DNA of 64,000 bases from Asticcacaulis endophyticus (GTDB lineage: Bacteria; Pseudomonadota; Alphaproteobacteria; Caulobacterales; Caulobacteraceae), in contig NZ_BMZB01000001.1 of NCBI RefSeq assembly GCF_014652575.1, positions 1,619,928 to 1,683,927 on the forward strand, given 5' to 3'. Shown here piece by piece: positions 9,371-34,454 of this stretch (its first letter is position 1; the number at the start of each line of letters is the position of its first letter). The position numbers and the translations under genes were made by a program. The notes beneath the pieces were generated by a model. It worked only from the letters and a program-made list of their open reading frames with translations. It was not told the DNA's origin and made no database searches.

Positions 9371-10150
9371 GGCTTCATCGCGAACCGATGTGCTGCCCGA
9401 CGCGATCACTTGACCGCCATAACCGCCGACGGGTTGGCCGTGCCAGTCAGTGACGGTGCCGCCGGCGTTCTCGATCACCGGAATGATGGCGTCGATATCC
9501 CAGGCCATCAGGCCGGTTTCAAGGGCGATGTCCATCGTCCCTTGAGCCACCATGGCAAAGGCATAGGCGTCGCAGCCATAGCGCGCAAGACGGGCCGCAC
9601 TTCGTAATGAACCAAACGCGTCGGCCTCAGGGCCTTTGAACAGGAAGGGGTCGGTGGTGCCAAGGGTGGCGGCCGATAGTGTGCCGCAATCGCGCACTTT
9701 CAGCGGCGTTTCACCGGAGGCGGTAATCAAGCGTGAGCCCAGATTGGGGCTGCCGATAAAGATTTCACCTAAAAAGGGCTGGGCAATCAGCCCAACGACC
9801 GGGCGATTGTGGTGGCGCAGACCGATCAGGGTCGTCCACAGCGGCAGGCCGGAAATGAAGGCGCGGGTGCCATCGATGGGATCAAGTACCCAGACAAATT
9901 CGGCGTCGGGCTGATGCTCACCATATTCTTCGCCGATGACGCCGTGGTCGGGGAAATGTTCCGAAATGAGTGAGCGGATGGCGCGTTCGGCCCCTTTGTC
10001 GGCTTCGGTGACCGGATCAAAGCCTTTGTCCAGCTTATTTTCGGCCCCCAGCGACAGGGTGCGAAACAGCGGCAGCGAAATGCGCGCCGCGGCGGCGGCG
10101 AGGGTCTGGGCAAAGGCGTCCAGATGATCGAAGTCCGGGGATTTTGTCAT
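9341..10150 (-). CDS. hisN: Inositol-monophosphatase-family phosphatase, probable histidinol-phosphatase HisN
   Basis: A 269-residue magnesium-dependent phosphatase of the inositol monophosphatase fold. The metal-binding motifs are GEEYGE (near 72), WVLDPIDGTRAF (near 88) and the C-terminal MAWDIDAIIPVIENAGG. The overall pattern (FDPVTEADKGAERAIR, HGVIGEEYG) matches HisN, the IMPase-type histidinol phosphatase. The his operon at 27-35 kb has no histidinol phosphatase, so this gene could supply that step. A 3'-phosphoadenosine or inositol phosphate phosphatase remains possible. It overlaps the convergent membrane-protein gene by 30 bp. Confidence 0.72.
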   Translation of the reverse strand: MTKSPDFDHLDAFAQTLAAAAARISLPLFRTLSLGAENKLDKGFDPVTEADKGAERAIRSLISEHFPDHGVIGEEYGEHQPDAEFVWVLDPIDGTRAFISGLPLWTTLIGLRHHNRPVVGLIAQPFLGEIFIGSPNLGSRLITASGETPLKVRDCGTLSAATLGTTDPFLFKGPEADAFGSLRSAARLARYGCDAYAFAMVAQGTMDIALETGLMAWDIDAIIPVIENAGGTVTDWHGQPVGGYGGQVIASGSTSVRDEALTHLGRAAA

Positions 10151-27247: not shown

Positions 27248-27889
27248 TTATTTGTGCCGTTGCCTCAGAATGTCCAGCACGTTCTCCAGCGAGGTTTCGC
27301 GCGCCATCAACAATACCGACAGGTGATACAGCAGATCGGCGGCTTCGGCGTGCAGTTCATCAAGATCACCGCAGCGACCGGCCAGGGCGGTTTCCAGACC
27401 TTCTTCACCGACCTTTTGCGCGATCTTGGCGACACCCTTTTGCATCAGCCGGGCGGTGTAGGATTCCTCGACCGGGGCCTTGGCGCGCTCAGCCACGACG
27501 CTGGCCAACTGACCCATAAAGCCGATGCCAGGGGCGGTCTCATCGCCAAAGCATGAGGTCGTCTTGAAATGGCAGGTCGGGCCGACCGGACGGGCATAGA
27601 CCAGCAGCGCGTCTTCGTCACAGTCGGTCAGGATGCGGTCAAGGTTCAGGAAATCGCCGGAGGTTTCGCCCTTGCGCCAGCGCCCGCCTTTGGAGCGCGA
27701 AAAGAACGTCACCTGACCGTCCGTCAGGGTCTCGGTCAGGGCGGCTTTGTCCATATAGCCCAGCATAAGGACTTGCAGCGTATCGGCGTGTTGTATGATC
27801 GCGGGGATCAAGCCGTCGCCCTTGGTGAAATCGAGCGCGTCGATATCGGTGAGGGTGAGCGAGGTGTTCAGTTTGTGGTCTTTGGACAT
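27248..27889 (-). CDS. hisIE: Bifunctional phosphoribosyl-AMP cyclohydrolase / phosphoribosyl-ATP pyrophosphatase
   Basis: A 213-residue fusion catalysing steps 2 and 3 of histidine biosynthesis. The HisI domain (about 10-115) has FFSRSKGGRWRKGETSG, DCDEDALLV and GPTCHFKTTSCF, including the zinc cysteines. The HisE domain (about 125-213) has GVAKIAQKVGEEGLETALA and the helix LHAEAADLLYHLSVLL. The ATG at 27889 is the real start; the frame continues upstream to 27985 only because it runs through a palindromic repeat that reads MWWWGF. It is the last gene of the minus-strand his operon and converges with the cysteine-repeat protein gene. Confidence 0.93.
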   Translation of the reverse strand: MSKDHKLNTSLTLTDIDALDFTKGDGLIPAIIQHADTLQVLMLGYMDKAALTETLTDGQVTFFSRSKGGRWRKGETSGDFLNLDRILTDCDEDALLVYARPVGPTCHFKTTSCFGDETAPGIGFMGQLASVVAERAKAPVEESYTARLMQKGVAKIAQKVGEEGLETALAGRCGDLDELHAEAADLLYHLSVLLMARETSLENVLDILRQRHK

Positions 27890-27970
27890 AATGTGTCTTT
27901 TCCAGAGCAATGTGCCAAAAAGTGTATGCGGTTTTTGGCCGAAACACTGCGACAAAATAAAAGCTAAGAA

Positions 27971-28041
27971 CCCCCACCACCACATCTCAATCGCTGCGCG
28001 ATCTCGTGCGGTCCCCCTCCCCAGTAAAACTGGGGAGGTAT
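27971..28041. repeat. Intergenic palindromic repeat, family B
   Basis: The pattern is CCCCCACCACCAC, a variable hairpin (TCAATCGCTGCGCGATCTCG), GCGGTCCCC, then CTCCCCAGT AAAA CTGGGGAGGT. It lies between hisF and hisIE. The same frame occurs at 31967 and 33421. Confidence 0.75.
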
Positions 28042-28057: not shown

Positions 28058-28825
28058 TTAAATCCGTACAGCAATCCCTGCGGCTTGCAGGTCGCGTTTC
28101 AGGTCGGGAATGTGAATAATCTTTTTGTGGAACACAGATGCCGCCAAAGCGCCCGACACATCACACTGATCGAACACATCAGTAAAATGTTCGACCGCAC
28201 CGGCCCCACCAGACGCTACCAGCGGAATATCGATCAGGTCGCGCACCAGACGCAACTGCTTTAGGTCATAGCCCTTGCGCACGCCGTCCTGATTCATGCA
28301 GTTGAGCACGATTTCACCGGCACCGCGCGTCTGGGCTTCGACCACCCAGTCGAGCGTGCGCCGGCCCGCCGCGCGGATTTTGTCAGGGTCACCACTATAC
28401 TGGTGAACGTAATAGTCGCCGTCCAACTCGCGGCTATCCACCCCCACGACCACGCACTGCGATCCGGCCATTTCAGCCAGTTCGTTGATCAGGTCGGGCC
28501 GCTCCAGCGCCGGGGAATTGATCGACACCTTGTCCGCGCCATTGTTCAGGCATTTGACAGCCTGTTCAGCCGAGCGGATACCGCCCGCCACACAGAACGG
28601 GATATCGAGCGCACGGGCAATGTCGCGTACCCAGTTATAATCGACTGTGCGACCTTCGGCTGAGGCGGTGATGTCGTACAGCACCAACTCATCGGCACCT
28701 TCGTCGCGGTAGCGCAGGGCCATATCCACGGCATCGCCCAGGACTTCGTGCCCGATGAACTGCACGCCCTTGACGACCTTGCCGTCCTTGACATCGAGAC
28801 AGGGGATGATGCGTCTGGCTAACAT
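28058..28825 (-). CDS. hisF: Imidazole glycerol phosphate synthase, cyclase subunit
   Basis: A 255-residue TIM barrel that, with HisH, turns PRFAR and ammonia into imidazole glycerol phosphate and AICAR. Catalytic Asp11 is in [15 protein letters not shown] and the second aspartate in [10 protein letters not shown] (near 130). Phosphate-binding loops are GGIRSAEQ and the C-terminal [11 protein letters not shown]. Length and motif order are normal. hisA ends six bases upstream, so the two are tightly coupled; a family B repeat follows. Confidence 0.96.
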
Positions 28826-28831
28826 TGTGTT

Positions 28832-29563
28832 TTATCCCACATTGAGCGCCGCTTTCAAATCGATCAGACCCTCATAGATCGCCTTGCCCACAATCGCGCC
28901 GTGAACCCCCAGCGCCTTGAGGTCATAGAGGTCATCAATGGACTTCACCCCGCCGGAGGCCTGAATCTCAAGGTCCGGGCGTTTCTGACGCAAAGCGCGC
29001 ATCAGATCCATGTTCGGCCCCATCAACATGCCGTCGCGCGACACATCGGTGACCAGAATCCGTTGCGCCACACCCACTGGATAATAGTCCAGCACGTCCC
29101 ATAGCGATATGCCAGAGCCTTCGACCCAGCCGTGCAGGGCGGCGTCAAAGTCACCATCTTTGGTGGGCAAAACGTCCAGCGCCAATGTAATGCGGTCCTT
29201 GCCGAACTCAGCCAGCCAGCCTCGCACCTCTTCCGGGTTTTTAACCGCGGCTGATCCGACCACGACGGCGGAGACTCCGGCATCGAGCAAGGTGGCCACA
29301 TGCTCGCGCGAGCGCACGCCGCCGCCGGTCTGAATCTTGGCTTTTGAGGCCTTGGCTAGCCGTCCGATCAGTTCGTGCTGCTGCGGCGATCCGGCCTTAG
29401 CGCCATCAAGGTCAACGATATGCACCCACTGGGCATTCTCGTCGTTGAAGAGGCCAAGGCGCTTAAACGGGTCGGGATCGTACAGGGTCACCTGATCGAA
29501 CTTGCCTTGCGCCAGACGGACACAGGCACCATTGATCAGGTCGATAGCGGGGTAGAGGATCAT
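28832..29563 (-). CDS. hisA: ProFAR isomerase (1-(5-phosphoribosyl)-5-[(5-phosphoribosylamino)methylideneamino]imidazole-4-carboxamide isomerase)
   Basis: A 243-residue TIM barrel performing the Amadori rearrangement of ProFAR to PRFAR. The catalytic Asp is in LYPAIDLINGACVRLAQG, the second in ITLALDVLPTKDG. Phosphate loops are seen in QTGGGVRSREHV and QASGGVKSIDDL. VTDVSRDGMLMGPNM is the usual loop. The gene lies between hisH and hisF; two back-to-back family A repeat units separate it from hisH. Confidence 0.95.
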   Translation of the reverse strand: MILYPAIDLINGACVRLAQGKFDQVTLYDPDPFKRLGLFNDENAQWVHIVDLDGAKAGSPQQHELIGRLAKASKAKIQTGGGVRSREHVATLLDAGVSAVVVGSAAVKNPEEVRGWLAEFGKDRITLALDVLPTKDGDFDAALHGWVEGSGISLWDVLDYYPVGVAQRILVTDVSRDGMLMGPNMDLMRALRQKRPDLEIQASGGVKSIDDLYDLKALGVHGAIVGKAIYEGLIDLKAALNVG

Positions 29564-29742: not shown

Positions 29743-30351
29743 TCATAGCTTCAGAAAATTCTCTAAAATCTTGGAACCGGTGGCCGAAGACCGTTCCGGG
29801 TGGAACTGGCAGCCCCAGACGTTACCCTTGCGCACCATCGCCGCAAACGGCGCGCCATAGGTCGATTGGGTCAGGGTATAGTCATTGACCGGGCACACAA
29901 AACTATGGACGAAATAGGCATAATCGCCCTCGGTAACGCCGTCATTAAGCGGATCGCTTTTCAACGGCTCCAGCGTGTTCCAGCCCATGTGCGGCACGAC
30001 ATAGCCATCGGGGACGACCATTTTGGTGACCTTGCCCGGAATGAGCCCCAGACATTCGACATCACCTTCGTCGGACGTCTCAAACAGCAATTGCTGGCCC
30101 AAGCAGACTCCCAATAGTGGGCGCTCAAAGCCGCGCAAAACCTCAACCAGCCCAAGTGCGCGCGCCTGAGACATGGCAAAACCGGCAGCCCCGACACCGG
30201 GCAGGACCAGCTTAGGCGCGGCGGCGATCTCAGCCGCATCAGATGACAGTACGGCGTCCGCTCCTAGCCGCTCCAGCGCAAACAGGACGGACGCCGTGTT
30301 CGCGCAACCTAACTCAACGACAACAATTTTATTGGCACTATTGCCCGTCAT
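29743..30351 (-). CDS. hisH: Imidazole glycerol phosphate synthase, glutaminase subunit
   Basis: A 202-residue class I glutamine amidotransferase that supplies ammonia to HisF. The nucleophile is the cysteine in LLGVCLGQQLLFE (near 84), and the His-Glu pair is in GCQFHPERS near the C-terminus. Oxyanion and tunnel motifs (VLPGVGAAGFAM, PHMGWNTLE) are present. It is co-directional with its neighbours; a 28-bp family C repeat lies between it and the upstream fusion gene. Confidence 0.95.
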   Translation of the reverse strand: MTGNSANKIVVVELGCANTASVLFALERLGADAVLSSDAAEIAAAPKLVLPGVGAAGFAMSQARALGLVEVLRGFERPLLGVCLGQQLLFETSDEGDVECLGLIPGKVTKMVVPDGYVVPHMGWNTLEPLKSDPLNDGVTEGDYAYFVHSFVCPVNDYTLTQSTYGAPFAAMVRKGNVWGCQFHPERSSATGSKILENFLKL

Positions 30352-30427: not shown

Positions 30428-31927
30428 TCATGCGAGCATGCCTTTCGTTGACGGCAGACTGTCGCCCTCAATGCGCGTGGCCTGGCGCAGGGCGCGGCCC
30501 AACGCCTTGAAGCAGGCCTCAGTCTTATGGTGATCATTGCCGCCGGAAACCTCGACATGGATCGAGGCCCCAAGCGTTTCCGACAAAGACCGGAACGCAT
30601 GGGCCGTCATTTCGGTCTGATAATCACCGATGTGGGTGGCCTCGAACTCGCCCTTAAAGACACAGAACGGACGCCCGCCCAGATCGACGCTGACCTTGGC
30701 TTCGGTCTCATCCATCGGCAGAACAAAGCCAAAGCGCGCCATGCCGATGCGGTCGCCCAGCGCCTGTTTCAACGCCGCACCGACCGCCAACATAGTGTCT
30801 TCGACCGTGTGGTGGGCGTCGATATGCAGATCGCCTTCGCAGGCGACCTGAAGCGAAAACCCGCCGTGGGAGGCGACCTGATCCAGCATGTGATCGAAGA
30901 AACCCACGCCGGTGGATATGCTGATCGGCTTGGGGTTATCGAGGTCGACCATGACCGAAATGCGGGTTTCCTTGGTGTCGCGCAAAAATTCGCCTTTGCG
31001 CGTCGGTTTGGCGTCGGAGGTCACGCCCAGCGCCGTCAGAATCCGGTCATTGAACGCTGCGTCACCCATCGGCAGCAACAGCCCGTCATAGGCGTTACGC
31101 GCACTGATGCCAAAGCGTTTCAGCGCGGTCTGGGTGCGGATCAGATCCATCGGTTTTAAGTGAATGAACGGCCCATCGTTCAATTCAAACTGGGCCAAAG
31201 CCTTACTCTCTGCCAGTTTGTGGCGCAGGCGCGATTGTTCCGACCGCACCAGAGCAATACGGGCTTCGACATTGATCTGCCGCGACGGCGACAGCACCAG
31301 TTCGGCGGCCTTAAGCGAGGGCGTCGGCAGCGGATAGGGCTCACAGTACCGCGTCAAGCCGGCCAGGGTCTTAGCCCCGGCGATCAGGGCGCCGACCCGC
31401 GCCCCGCCGATACCGTAAAGGTAAGACAGGCTTTTGAAGACGATGACATTGGTCTCCGTCCGCGTCAGTTCGGTCAGACTCTGGGCATCGACCGCATCGA
31501 AATAGCTCTCATCGACCACCAACAGCGTCGGGAAAATATCAACCGCCAGCGCCCGTGCGGCCTCAGCGCTCCACGCCTTGCCATCGGGCAAACGCGGGTT
31601 GTCGATCAGGTAAAGCCCCGCACTTTTGGCCCCCAGCGCATTGGACGGCGGCGACTTGATCTGAAGCCCATACACATTGCACAGGCTTTCCAGATAATAG
31701 GATTTTTCGCTTAAGCCCGTGTCGGCCAGGATGGTTTCATGGCCATGCAGCCGTAAGCGCCGCAGCAGGATTTCCATGGCATGCGACGCGCCGCGCGTCA
31801 CCAAAAGCTGATAGGGCTCAACGCCATAAAGCTCGGCCATGCGTTCGCGCAAGGGCTCCAGCGACGGCGGGGAGCCTTCGAGACCGGACGTGGCGGCGGT
31901 CAGGGATGAAAACGGTGACGCGAACAT
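30428..31927 (-). CDS. hisB: HisB imidazoleglycerol-phosphate dehydratase with fused, degenerate HisC-like aminotransferase domain
   Basis: A 499-residue two-domain protein. Residues 310-499 are a complete IGP dehydratase (step 6), with metal motifs GFFDHMLDQVASHGG, DAHHTVEDTM and NDHHKTEACFKALGRALRQA. Residues 1-300 resemble a fold-type I aminotransferase close to HisC: TRGASHAMEILLRR (45-58), IDNPRLPDG (108-116), VVDESYFD (137-144), SLSYLYGIGGARVG (166-179). The catalytic Lys of the usual SLSKAFGLAG motif is Tyr169, and the Asn before PTG is Leu113, while Asp139, Tyr142 and Arg177 remain. The N-terminal domain is therefore probably not a working transaminase. It starts at ATG 31927, two repeats downstream of hisD. 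Gene symbol given for the intact half. Confidence 0.9.
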   Translation of the reverse strand: MFASPFSSLTAATSGLEGSPPSLEPLRERMAELYGVEPYQLLVTRGASHAMEILLRRLRLHGHETILADTGLSEKSYYLESLCNVYGLQIKSPPSNALGAKSAGLYLIDNPRLPDGKAWSAEAARALAVDIFPTLLVVDESYFDAVDAQSLTELTRTETNVIVFKSLSYLYGIGGARVGALIAGAKTLAGLTRYCEPYPLPTPSLKAAELVLSPSRQINVEARIALVRSEQSRLRHKLAESKALAQFELNDGPFIHLKPMDLIRTQTALKRFGISARNAYDGLLLPMGDAAFNDRILTALGVTSDAKPTRKGEFLRDTKETRISVMVDLDNPKPISISTGVGFFDHMLDQVASHGGFSLQVACEGDLHIDAHHTVEDTMLAVGAALKQALGDRIGMARFGFVLPMDETEAKVSVDLGGRPFCVFKGEFEATHIGDYQTEMTAHAFRSLSETLGASIHVEVSGGNDHHKTEACFKALGRALRQATRIEGDSLPSTKGMLA

Positions 31928-31966: not shown

Positions 31967-32085
31967 CCCCCACCACCACGCGGTTGCCCGCGCGGTCCCC
32001 CTCCCCAGTAAACTGGGGAGGTATATTTTTATACTCCCCCGGCGTGCCGGGGGAGGTGGATGACCGCAGGTCAGACGGAGGGGGG
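31967..32085. repeat. Pair of palindromic repeats (family B) between hisD and hisC'B
   Basis: The first unit is 31967-32023: CCACCACCAC, GCGGTTGCCCGCGC, GTCCCC, CTCCCCAGT AAA CTGGGGAGGT. The second, 32033-32085, is inverted: CTCCCCCGGCGTGCCGGGGGAGG, a TGGATGACCGCAGGTCA hairpin, GACGGAGGGGG. The intervening sequence is AT-rich. Confidence 0.8.
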
Positions 32086-32096
32086 CTTTAAGCACC

Positions 32097-33395
32097 TTAA
32101 ACCTCCAGCCTGAAATCCGCTGCCAGCGCATGGGCTTCGAGCCCTTCTAAACGGGCGAGGCGGGCGGCAGCGGGCGCAATGGCGGCGGCACCGGCCTTGG
32201 TGGCGCGTTGCACCACAAAACTGGTCAGGTACGAGCGCACGGTGATGCCGTCATAGGCCTTGGCCGCGCCATCGGTCGGCAGGACGTGGCTGGGGCCTGC
32301 TGCATAGTCACCAAAGGTTTCAGCGGCATAGGTGCCCGCAAAAATGGTCCCCGCAGCAGTTAGGTTCGGGATAATCGTGTCAACATCTGCGACCTGAATG
32401 GCGAGGTGTTCGGGGCCGTAAAGGTTGGACACTTCCGCCGCCGCCGCAAGATCATCGACGATAAACAGGCGGGCCTGTTCCAGCGAGGCGCGAGCAATGG
32501 TTTCACGCGGCAAACGTGATACTTGGGCTTCGACCTCAGCCGCAATGGCGGCGGCAATATCGGCATCAAGCGACACCAGCACAACTTGCGCGTCGGAATC
32601 ATGCTCGGCCTGACTGAGCAGGTCGGCGGCGACCAGCTTCACATTGGCGGTTTTATCGGCAATGACCAGCAGTTCCGAAGGCCCGGCGGGCATGTCGATG
32701 GCGATGCCGGAGACGCGCTCGGTCGCCTGACGCTTGGCTTCGGTCACGTACTTGTTGCCCGGCCCGAACAGCTTATCAGCGGCAGGCACGCCCTCAAGCG
32801 CGCCGGTCGCAAGGGCCGCAATGCCGTGCGCGCCACCGACGCTCCACAGGCTATCAAGCCCGGAAGCCGCGGCAGTGGCGATCATCATCGGGTGCAGGGA
32901 GCCATCCTTGGCGGGCGGGGTGATGGCCACGCGGTTAGGCACTTTGGCCACCAAAGCGGGCACGGCGGTCATGATCAGGGTCGAAAACAGCGGCGCTAGC
33001 CCGCCCGGAATATAGAGCCCGGCGGTGGTGATGGGGCGATACACCCGTTGCAGGCTCAGGCCCGGCTTGGGGGCGATGATAGGGCCGTCGCTCGGCAGTT
33101 CGGCGCCCTGAAAGGCGCGCACGTTTTCGACGGCAAGCTCCATGGCCGCAAGGTCTTCGCGGGAAAGGGCGGCGCGGGCGGCATCAACCGTGGCGGCGGT
33201 CAGGTCGATCCGCTTAGGGGCATGGCCATCCAGCTTGACGGCCCAGTCGCTGACGGCCGCAAACCCACGCGCTTCGACATCATCAAAAATCGTGCGCACG
33301 GTGTCCAGCACGCGCGTATCACGCCGGTTGGCGGGGCGGGCGAGGGCGGCCTTGCGCTCAGCCGCGTTCAGATTTTTCCAGACAAAGGTTTTCAT
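32097..33395 (-). CDS. hisD: Histidinol dehydrogenase
   Basis: A 432-residue zinc enzyme that oxidises histidinol to histidine in two NAD-dependent steps. The family segment PAGPSELLVIADKTANVKLV is followed by DLLSQAEHDSDAQ, which carries the zinc/base residues, and YGPEHLAIQ gives the catalytic Glu-His pair; further ligands lie near the C-terminus (GPSHVLPT). The ATG at 33395 is the true start with AGGTAAAACG upstream. The frame extends to 33434 only because of a family B repeat reading MWWWGFWL. hisG lies upstream across another repeat pair. Confidence 0.95.
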   Translation of the reverse strand: MKTFVWKNLNAAERKAALARPANRRDTRVLDTVRTIFDDVEARGFAAVSDWAVKLDGHAPKRIDLTAATVDAARAALSREDLAAMELAVENVRAFQGAELPSDGPIIAPKPGLSLQRVYRPITTAGLYIPGGLAPLFSTLIMTAVPALVAKVPNRVAITPPAKDGSLHPMMIATAAASGLDSLWSVGGAHGIAALATGALEGVPAADKLFGPGNKYVTEAKRQATERVSGIAIDMPAGPSELLVIADKTANVKLVAADLLSQAEHDSDAQVVLVSLDADIAAAIAAEVEAQVSRLPRETIARASLEQARLFIVDDLAAAAEVSNLYGPEHLAIQVADVDTIIPNLTAAGTIFAGTYAAETFGDYAAGPSHVLPTDGAAKAYDGITVRSYLTSFVVQRATKAGAAAIAPAAARLARLEGLEAHALAADFRLEV

Positions 33396-33420
33396 CGTTT
33401 TACCTAAAGAAAGCCAGAAA

Positions 33421-33560
33421 CCCCACCACCACATTTCGCCGCTTCGCGTCTCGTGCGGTCCCCCTCCCCAGTAAACTGGGGAGGTACAAGATGATGTCTT
33501 ATACCTCCCTGACGTGTCGGGGAGGGGGACCGAAGCGCTCTTGCGCTTTGGTGGTGGGGT
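33421..33560. repeat. Pair of palindromic repeats (family B) between hisG and hisD
   Basis: Unit 1 (33421-33486) has CCCCACCACCAC, a TTCGCCGCTTCGCGTCTCG hairpin, GCGGTCCCC, CTCCCCAGT AAA CTGGGGAGGT. Unit 2 (33501-33560) is the inverse: ATACCTCCCTGACGTGTCGG, GGAGGGGGACCG, AAGCGCTCTTGCGCTT, TGGTGGTGGGGT. The two hairpins differ. Confidence 0.8.
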
Positions 33561-33572
33561 GTCTTGCTCAAA

Positions 33573-34454
33573 TTACTTCATCATTTTCTCGATCGGCAGG
33601 ACCAGTATCGCAGACGCCCCCGCAGTTTTCAGCTTATCCAGCGTGTCCCAGAACACATTTTCCTGACAGACCGCATGGACGGCGACCGTGTCTTCGCGGC
33701 CGGCCAACTGCATGATCGTCGGCGCATCGGCACCGGGGATCAGTTCGATGATCTCACTCAGATGCTCACGCGGCGCATTCATCATGACGTACTTGGCGCC
33801 AGTCGAAGCCGTCACACCATCGAAACGGCGCAGCAGCATGTCGTAGGTGTGGGCCAGTTCAGGGGCCGGAGCATGGGGGGCCTTGACCAGTACGGCTTCG
33901 GATTTCAGCACCAGATCGGTCGCCTTCATACCATTGGCTTCTAAGGTGGCACCTGTGGAGACCAGATCGCAAATGGCGTGGGCGATCTTCATGCGGGGGG
34001 CCACTTCGACGGCACCGCGCATTTCAACAATCTCGGCTGTGATGCCGTGGGTTTTGAGCCACGCCCCCAGCACATTGGGATAGGATGTGGCGATGCGCTT
34101 GCCATCCAGCCACTGCGGGCCGGTATAGTCGGCCTCATTCGGTACGGCGACTTTAAGCGTACACGACCCAAAGCCCAGGCGCTGCACGATCATGGCTTCA
34201 AGGTCGGCGTCGGGGAAGTGCTCGGCCAGAACATTGTAGCCGACGATGCCCAGTTCCGCCACGCCATCGGCCACAAAGGTCGGGATATCGTCGTCACGGA
34301 CGCGCAACAGATCGATCGGCTGGTTCTCGATCCGGTAAAGCAACTCATTGGCGCCCTTCATGACGCGCAGGCCAGCACCGGAAATCAGCTCCAGCGAACG
34401 GTCAGCCAGACGGCCGGACTTTTGGACGGCAATGCGAAGGCGGGGTTCAGACAT
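33573..34454 (-). CDS. hisG: ATP phosphoribosyltransferase, long form
   Basis: A 293-residue enzyme for the first committed step: ATP plus PRPP gives phosphoribosyl-ATP. The length and the extra C-terminal ACT-like domain (about 220-293) identify the long, allosteric HisG, which is inhibited by histidine and does not need HisZ; no hisZ is present nearby. Markers are RIAVQKSGRLADRSLELI, a Phe-rich VGYNVLAEHF segment, and the PRPP loop AICDLVSTGATLEANGMK. It starts six bases after the stop of the TrpR-like regulator gene. Confidence 0.94.
   Translation of the reverse strand: MSEPRLRIAVQKSGRLADRSLELISGAGLRVMKGANELLYRIENQPIDLLRVRDDDIPTFVADGVAELGIVGYNVLAEHFPDADLEAMIVQRLGFGSCTLKVAVPNEADYTGPQWLDGKRIATSYPNVLGAWLKTHGITAEIVEMRGAVEVAPRMKIAHAICDLVSTGATLEANGMKATDLVLKSEAVLVKAPHAPAPELAHTYDMLLRRFDGVTASTGAKYVMMNAPREHLSEIIELIPGADAPTIMQLAGREDTVAVHAVCQENVFWDTLDKLKTAGASAILVLPIEKMMK

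Follow-up and report, generated by a model that had tools for sequence, protein, structure and literature searches.

A HisC-type domain without its PLP lysine, fused to a motif-intact, predicted HisB dehydratase in Asticcacaulis

The window, i.e. the whole stretch of 64,000 nt of Asticcacaulis endophyticus DNA that was analysed, carries on its minus strand a histidine gene cluster in the order hisG-hisD-[fusion]-hisH-hisA-hisF-hisIE. The fused gene (30428..31927, for which the original prediction gave no strand) encodes in one frame of 499 aa a pseudo-HisC domain and a HisB dehydratase, as indicated by the ORF list and by Pfam, and starts with an ATG at 31927-31925, with an AAAGGA at 31943-31938. 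Also on the minus strand lie hisG (33573..34454, 293 aa), hisD directly upstream from the fusion (32097..33434), hisH directly downstream from it (29743..30351), hisA (28832..29563), hisF (28058..28825) and hisIE (27248..27985), the true start of which is probably inside the listed ORF. These six ORFs we take to be the genes so named, and the matching gene order in relatives backs this. A separate gene for the histidinol-phosphatase HisN is found on the same strand at 9383..10129 (TIGR02067, 300.3 bits with a cut-off of 275.15).

A GC-rich palindromic element, CCCCCTCCCCAGTAAACTGGGGAGG, occurs three times in the gaps of the his cluster (28005-28039, 31989-32023 and 33452-33486). A GTGGTGGTGGGG-like sequence adjoins these copies and probably accounts for the MWWWGF with which the listed hisD and hisIE ORFs start.

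The HisC-type domain, which has neither the PLP lysine nor the N-terminal arm of HisC, comprises residues 1 to about 305 (31013..31927, minus strand), and the imidazoleglycerol-phosphate dehydratase domain comprises residues 309-499 (30431..31003, minus strand). Pfam reported Aminotran_1_2 at residues 23-244 (E 4.8e-14) and IGPD at residues 339-480 (E 7.7e-57). In fact, the entire PF00475 profile is covered and both the HHxxED and the DHHKxE motifs are present, so that the C-terminal part is a motif-intact, predicted imidazoleglycerol-phosphate dehydratase (EC 4.2.1.19), in keeping with the intact dehydratase of the original prediction. The N-terminal part reached 88.5 bits on the NCBIfam hisC model (TIGR01141), below its cut-off of 276.55, and slightly more, 100.3 bits with a cut-off of 290.55, on the CobD model (threonine-phosphate decarboxylase, TIGR01140). 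A profile-profile comparison matched it to intact fused HisC with an E of 1e-51 at 25% identity, and this match and those of Pfam rule out a chance resemblance to aminotransferases. Judged by sequence comparison, these computations show that residues 1 to about 305 share descent with HisC, although the domain lacks the Schiff-base lysine and stays under the TIGR01141 cut-off. The protein is not a HisNB, its N-terminal part being HisC-like with no HAD phosphatase domain. AlphaFold2 modelling of the window protein and four loci gave a pLDDT of 34.3, and fold type I is predicted from sequence homology.

A separate internal start for HisB was considered and rejected, no start codon being conserved at the junction among the 31 loci scanned over a stretch of about 42 codons (three of these loci lack the motif used to place the stretch). 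Precisely, the stretch in the window holds one SD-like TTG, which is not conserved, and seven loci (L029, L031, L034, L049, L060, L101 and L122) have no ATG, GTG or TTG in it. Since no internal start is conserved, the dehydratase would be made as part of the fusion.

In the alignment to E. coli HisC, the PLP lysine (Lys214) corresponds to Tyr169 (codon 31421..31423, minus strand) and Asn157 to Leu113 (codon 31589..31591, minus strand), while Asp184, Tyr187 and Arg222 are kept as Asp139, Tyr142 and Arg177. The original prediction had made the same five assignments, and its central claim, a HisC-like domain without PLP lysine fused to HisB, was confirmed by this alignment and by Pfam. Ser213 is likewise retained; Tyr55, Asp85 and Tyr110 are all replaced by Ser and Arg335 by Leu, and the N-terminal arm with Tyr20 is absent. 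Arg322 is retained in the window protein, but most other Asticcacaulis loci have Lys or Gln there. We assumed for all these residues the roles assigned to them in E. coli HisC.

The residue replacing the PLP lysine varies freely among the loci with a dead HisC part. Of the 24 Asticcacaulis loci read, 11 have Tyr and 13 Phe; of the 21 loci read from a second genus of the same family (g3, at a guess Brevundimonas), 18 have Leu, 2 Met and the remaining one Lys. Five f3 loci all differ (Ala, Gln, Leu, Ile, gap), the g10 locus has Leu, and two f5 loci have Ser and Leu. The loss is therefore fixed in Asticcacaulis, and a sequencing error at this codon, which the original prediction had allowed for, is ruled out by the Tyr or Phe in 24/24 Asticcacaulis loci, the lysine being absent also from 20/21 g3 loci. 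None of the 24 Asticcacaulis and 20 dead g3 loci read has lost the equivalent of Asp184 or Ser213, and that of Arg222 is kept in 23/24 and 20/20, respectively; Pro takes the place of Arg222 in the g10 locus, in 5/5 f3 loci and in the two dead f5 loci. Thr211 has become Ser. Tyr110, Asn157 and the N-terminal arm are gone throughout the dead clade described below, and Tyr55 and Arg335 are gone in Asticcacaulis. As in a pseudoenzyme, the catalytic residues have been lost.

The original prediction had suggested looking for a second, intact hisC elsewhere in the genome, and there is one, away from the his cluster, at C1:1299723-1300772 (300.7 bits, lysine kept). A further HisC paralogue at C1:1164345-1165349 (L009, L086), with a Tat-like leader recognized by eye, scored 231.5 bits on TIGR01141 and 398.6 bits on PRK09105, under both cut-offs.

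The fusion is present in 24 of the 25 Asticcacaulis genomes, the exception (G013) being 87% complete. Among 249 genomes of the family, it was found in Asticcacaulis and in 52 of the 56 g3 genomes (a table count; 21 were read), and in one genome of the family (G033) it is shortened to a 416-aa frame. Stand-alone HisB also occurs in the family, and the other family matches, among those listed, start near residue 300 with 43-51% identity. Four g3 genomes listed as 100% complete (G099, G140, G173 and G209) gave E values of about 1e-9 only, with no match of HisB strength, and so may be histidine auxotrophs. One g3 genome (G106; L062, 3945-6089) has an intact HisC-HisB fusion, keeping Lys and the other residues compared, together with a separate HisC, whereas the fused HisC of its relatives is dead.

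From the matches in 299 genomes of the order we fetched 37 loci of other families. A HisC with its lysine is fused to HisB in 18 of them and a dead HisC in 7, while 5 loci have HisD joined to HisB in a single frame that lacks any HisC part (L104, L105, L106, L117 and L118, from G274, G294, G290, G346 and G374; f3 g33 and f4 g38). The other 7 (L119-L125, f4), with frames of about 400 aa, begin, where HisC would stand, with an N-terminal part some 205-235 aa long. E-values were obtained for 17 sequences: the match to the HisC profiles was clear for L124 (E 1e-8) and marginal for L122 (0.0045), and L119, L120, L121, L123 and L125 showed no HisC by the dead and intact profiles, with scores like those of the HisD-HisB controls. 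We dropped the idea of a shrunken HisC remnant in these frames, the profiles being clear in 1/7. A sample of 398 from the phylum gave matches beyond the order as well; the nine of them that were read (L133-L135 and, with longer frames, L141-L146) were all HisNB with a separate HisC, and no HisC-HisB fusion was seen among these nine. In a plasmid search, the 20 of 92 records that were examined were all from Gammaproteobacteria, and one record of 60-80% identity lay outside those 20.

As far as the stretch extends (it is cut in L056, L107 and L126), every fused cluster read runs hisG-hisD-(hisC)hisB-hisH-hisA-hisF-hisIE. E. coli and three gammaproteobacterial loci show the same order, with hisN between hisC and hisB. 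By gene content and order, then, the operon is of the gammaproteobacterial type hisGDC[NB]HAF[IE], with the phosphatase part missing in the Caulobacterales relatives. PMC1963479 proposes that alpha- and epsilonproteobacteria, among others, received hisNB, perhaps with the operon, from Gammaproteobacteria by horizontal transfer.

Trees were built for both domains by quick searches with SH-aLRT support only. In the HisB-domain tree (76 rows after dropping 16 near-copies and loci fetched twice), the fusions and 4 HisNB are separated from 4 stand-alone HisB of the same family with a support of 100, and the tree implies at least 5 changes of lysine state and at least 4 changes to or from HisD-HisB. 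In the HisC tree (45 rows, with CobD left out, odd composition flagged in 5 rows, and the dead clade represented by 10 of its 50 sequences plus L128), intact fused, dead fused and gammaproteobacterial HisC are separated from 11 stand-alone HisC, again with a support of 100. The 10 dead rows, from Asticcacaulis (g1), g3 and f3, form one clade (support 99) with a stem of 1.47 changes per column, followed by a further stem of 1.47 for Asticcacaulis and one of 0.66 for g3 and f3 together. The fused HisC of G106 branches beside the dead clade with a support of 81, the forks in this place being weak (81 and 86).

Going beyond the original prediction, we can trace the domain, from these comparisons, to a HisC-HisB fusion that relatives retain with a motif-intact HisC; here the HisC part is dead. 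As to origin, an ancestral compact his operon of gammaproteobacterial type would have had hisC next to hisNB. An ancestor belonging to Caulobacterales would have lost the phosphatase part, with HisC and HisB becoming one polypeptide. The simplest account is that the loss of the phosphatase part itself put hisC and hisB in one frame. In many relatives the fused HisC, the only one found there, still has its motifs intact, and the intact fusions presumably have both activities.

We searched with the HisC model TIGR01141 a sample of 78 chosen genomes with a fused HisB frame. The fused HisC was above the cut-off in 24 of them (G271, G334, G481, G263 and G306 were so classed by score or length alone), with scores of intact fused HisC up to 333.7 bits; 18 of these 24 genomes had no other HisC above the cut-off and 6 had another (G106, G251, G259, G276, G410 and G426). 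In the remaining 54 genomes, the fused HisC was absent or below the cut-off, corresponding to 35 dead HisC, 11 HisD-HisB and 8 short N-terminal parts (G369, G413, G333, G337, G341, G353, G291, G338 and G429 were so classed by score or length alone). A separate HisC above the cut-off was present in 53 of these 54 genomes, and in the other one (G323) it scored 275.6 against 276.55. Fisher's test of the state of the fused HisC versus the presence of a second HisC gave a p of 1e-11, which is merely descriptive because the 78 genomes are related. Ten loci (L059, L100-L106, L128 and L132), in which the fused HisC is dead or deleted, have a separate HisC directly downstream from hisIE, as if recruited to the operon.

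Catalytic loss, hence, goes with redundancy. A second HisC of another clade would have made the fused one redundant, after which the lysine, the substrate residues and the N-terminal arm would have been lost; we infer this direction, with redundancy as the cause. The six genomes in which an intact fused HisC coexists with a separate one indicate that redundancy need not lead to loss.

For the dead domain, median dN/dS in three Asticcacaulis subgroups (14 of the 24 loci) was 0.027, 0.031 and 0.077, as compared with 0.019, 0.049 and 0.022 for the dehydratase, 0.061, 0.073 and 0.108 for hisH and 0.047, 0.061 and 0.101 for the part of hisD within the locus. Between close Asticcacaulis species the domain is therefore below hisD and hisH, and the computation shows purifying selection on it. 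In the wider Asticcacaulis comparison, in which pairwise counting is near saturation between subclades, the domain had 0.268 versus 0.088 for the dehydratase (257 of 276 pairs kept), about threefold, and in a second count 0.166 versus 0.073 (120 pairs), so that over wider distances its dN/dS is 2-3 times that of the dehydratase. Constraint is weaker in g3: two subgroups gave 0.146 and 0.383 for the domain, 0.219 and 0.266 for hisH and 0.112 and 0.228 for hisD, and the domain had 0.359 over 86 pairs, with values up to 0.55. The f4 frames of about 400 aa gave about 0.65 over 6 pairs, a value that includes residues before an unplaced start. These values cover the dead groups; for intact fusions, 0 pairs of 3 and 0 of 1 were kept.

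Invariant positions in the 24 Asticcacaulis loci numbered 97 of 302 in the domain versus 132 of 191 in the dehydratase. In 11 columns a residue reaches at least 95% in 50 dead-clade sequences and at most 20% in 19 intact fused HisC (near-copies included, unweighted), and among these newly fixed residues are His49, Glu196, Arg216, Pro253 and Arg295; conversely, 15 columns conserved in the intact fused HisC are lost in the dead clade. We read the dN/dS between close species and the new fixed columns as a change of constraint, not decay alone, so that selection after loss, expected for a pseudoenzyme, is seen in close Asticcacaulis pairs and in the new columns.

In the dead clade (Asticcacaulis, g3 and f3), then, the domain would have evolved fast before being constrained anew, now as a part of the dehydratase without catalytic activity. 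The whole account, from the origin of the fusion to the conversion of a redundant transaminase into a non-catalytic module of probably structural function, is the one we favour and consider reasonably probable. What the module does is a more tentative matter: it would most likely serve folding, solubility or higher-order assembly, and a role in these properties of the particle, or in contact with another his enzyme, has in our estimate somewhat less than an even chance. Plant IGPD is a 24-mer with the N-terminal sheet outward, and the 24-mer is said in PMC10978614 to be conserved between kingdoms. With the sheet facing outward, the domain would sit on the outer face. The five HisD-HisB loci read and the other N-terminal forms of f4 indicate that the dehydratase does not need the domain everywhere.

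The original prediction had offered a scaffold, a ligand sensor or a relic, and a structural or oligomer role fits best. A redundant domain in neutral decay, kept as the bearer of the sole start codon, would agree with the coexistence of intact, dead and absent forms in the order, with the faster evolution of the domain over wider distances and with the high values in g3; yet a freely drifting relic agrees poorly with the low dN/dS between close Asticcacaulis species, with the 97 invariant positions and with the residues newly fixed in the dead clade, and we regard it as improbable. The strong constraint between close species could also come from a regulatory pseudoenzyme, in which the dead pocket would still bind a phosphate ligand or histidine and tune the dehydratase, much as HisZ, a precedent within the pathway, does for HisG. 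The Asp184 and Ser213 equivalents kept in all the Asticcacaulis and dead g3 loci read, and that of Arg222 in nearly all of these, would suit such binding, and the putative ligands would be imidazole-acetol phosphate, histidinol phosphate, PLP without a Schiff base or histidine. However, the substrate pocket is not conserved: Tyr110, Asn157 and the arm are gone in the dead clade and Tyr55 and Arg335 in Asticcacaulis, the residues at the lost sites vary between subclades, Arg222 has become Pro in the g10, f3 and f5 loci mentioned, and Asp184 may be structural. A sensor role is retained as an unlikely one, as is the idea that the dead HisC regulates the dehydratase to which it is fused, either allosterically or through its assembly, in response to the dehydratase product or to another phosphate intermediate.

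Two further readings concern the identity of the domain. Its descent from CobD/CobC rather than from HisC would be in line with the slightly higher TIGR01140 score, but the intact fused relatives score far better on TIGR01141 than it does, the dead clade groups with them (in a tree without CobD) and the gene occupies the hisC-hisB place in the operon, which makes such a descent very improbable. Even less credible is an aminotransferase still active through a relocated lysine. Lys165, which the original prediction had named as an example of a lysine that, if it took the PLP position, would refute it, is invariant in 24/24 Asticcacaulis loci; it aligns with Arg210 of the 'LRTLSK' of HisC, four residues before the PLP lysine, Arg stands there in 20/20 dead g3 loci, several substrate residues are lost and an intact HisC is present elsewhere in the genome, so that Lys165 was rejected as PLP lysine.

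Among known systems, HisNB (HisB in E. coli) is similar as a dehydratase with an N-terminal enzyme of the his pathway and the same operon order, and among the matches listed in the phylum sample it provides the closest HisB domains outside the order. Its partner is a HAD phosphatase, the histidinol-phosphatase, whereas here it is a dead HisC domain and HisN is separate. E. coli HisC (PDB 1fg3 and others) is homologous across the domain, but has the lysine, Asn157, Tyr55, Tyr110, Arg335 and the N-terminal arm, all lost here. HisZ, the regulatory subunit of short HisG, is a regulatory protein of the same pathway; unlike the domain, for which regulation is only putative, it is a separate polypeptide, related to histidyl-tRNA synthetase, and acts at another pathway step. 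LCB1/SPTLC1 of serine palmitoyltransferase is a PLP fold type I subunit that has no PLP lysine and supports its partner; it may be an analogue as a fold type I member without the lysine, its partner being an active paralogue and here an unrelated dehydratase on the same chain. Among the titles and abstract beginnings listed from the open-access literature, we found none that describes a HisC-HisB or HisD-HisB fusion. The locus combines two known kinds of event, a his gene fusion and a pseudoenzyme.

Annotation must not score the fused frame as an Asticcacaulis HisC, and an intact fused HisC may be the only one that a genome has. If the domain were, after all, a regulator, the enzyme of the next step would have been fused, made redundant by a second copy and turned into a regulator of the dehydratase, and one bacterial order would still contain the intact, the dead and the deleted form. 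One operon place in one order holds intact HisC-HisB, dead HisC-HisB and HisD-HisB, with a second HisC as the likely cause, and this offers a way to test how a fused domain, once redundant, turns into a non-catalytic part rather than disappearing.
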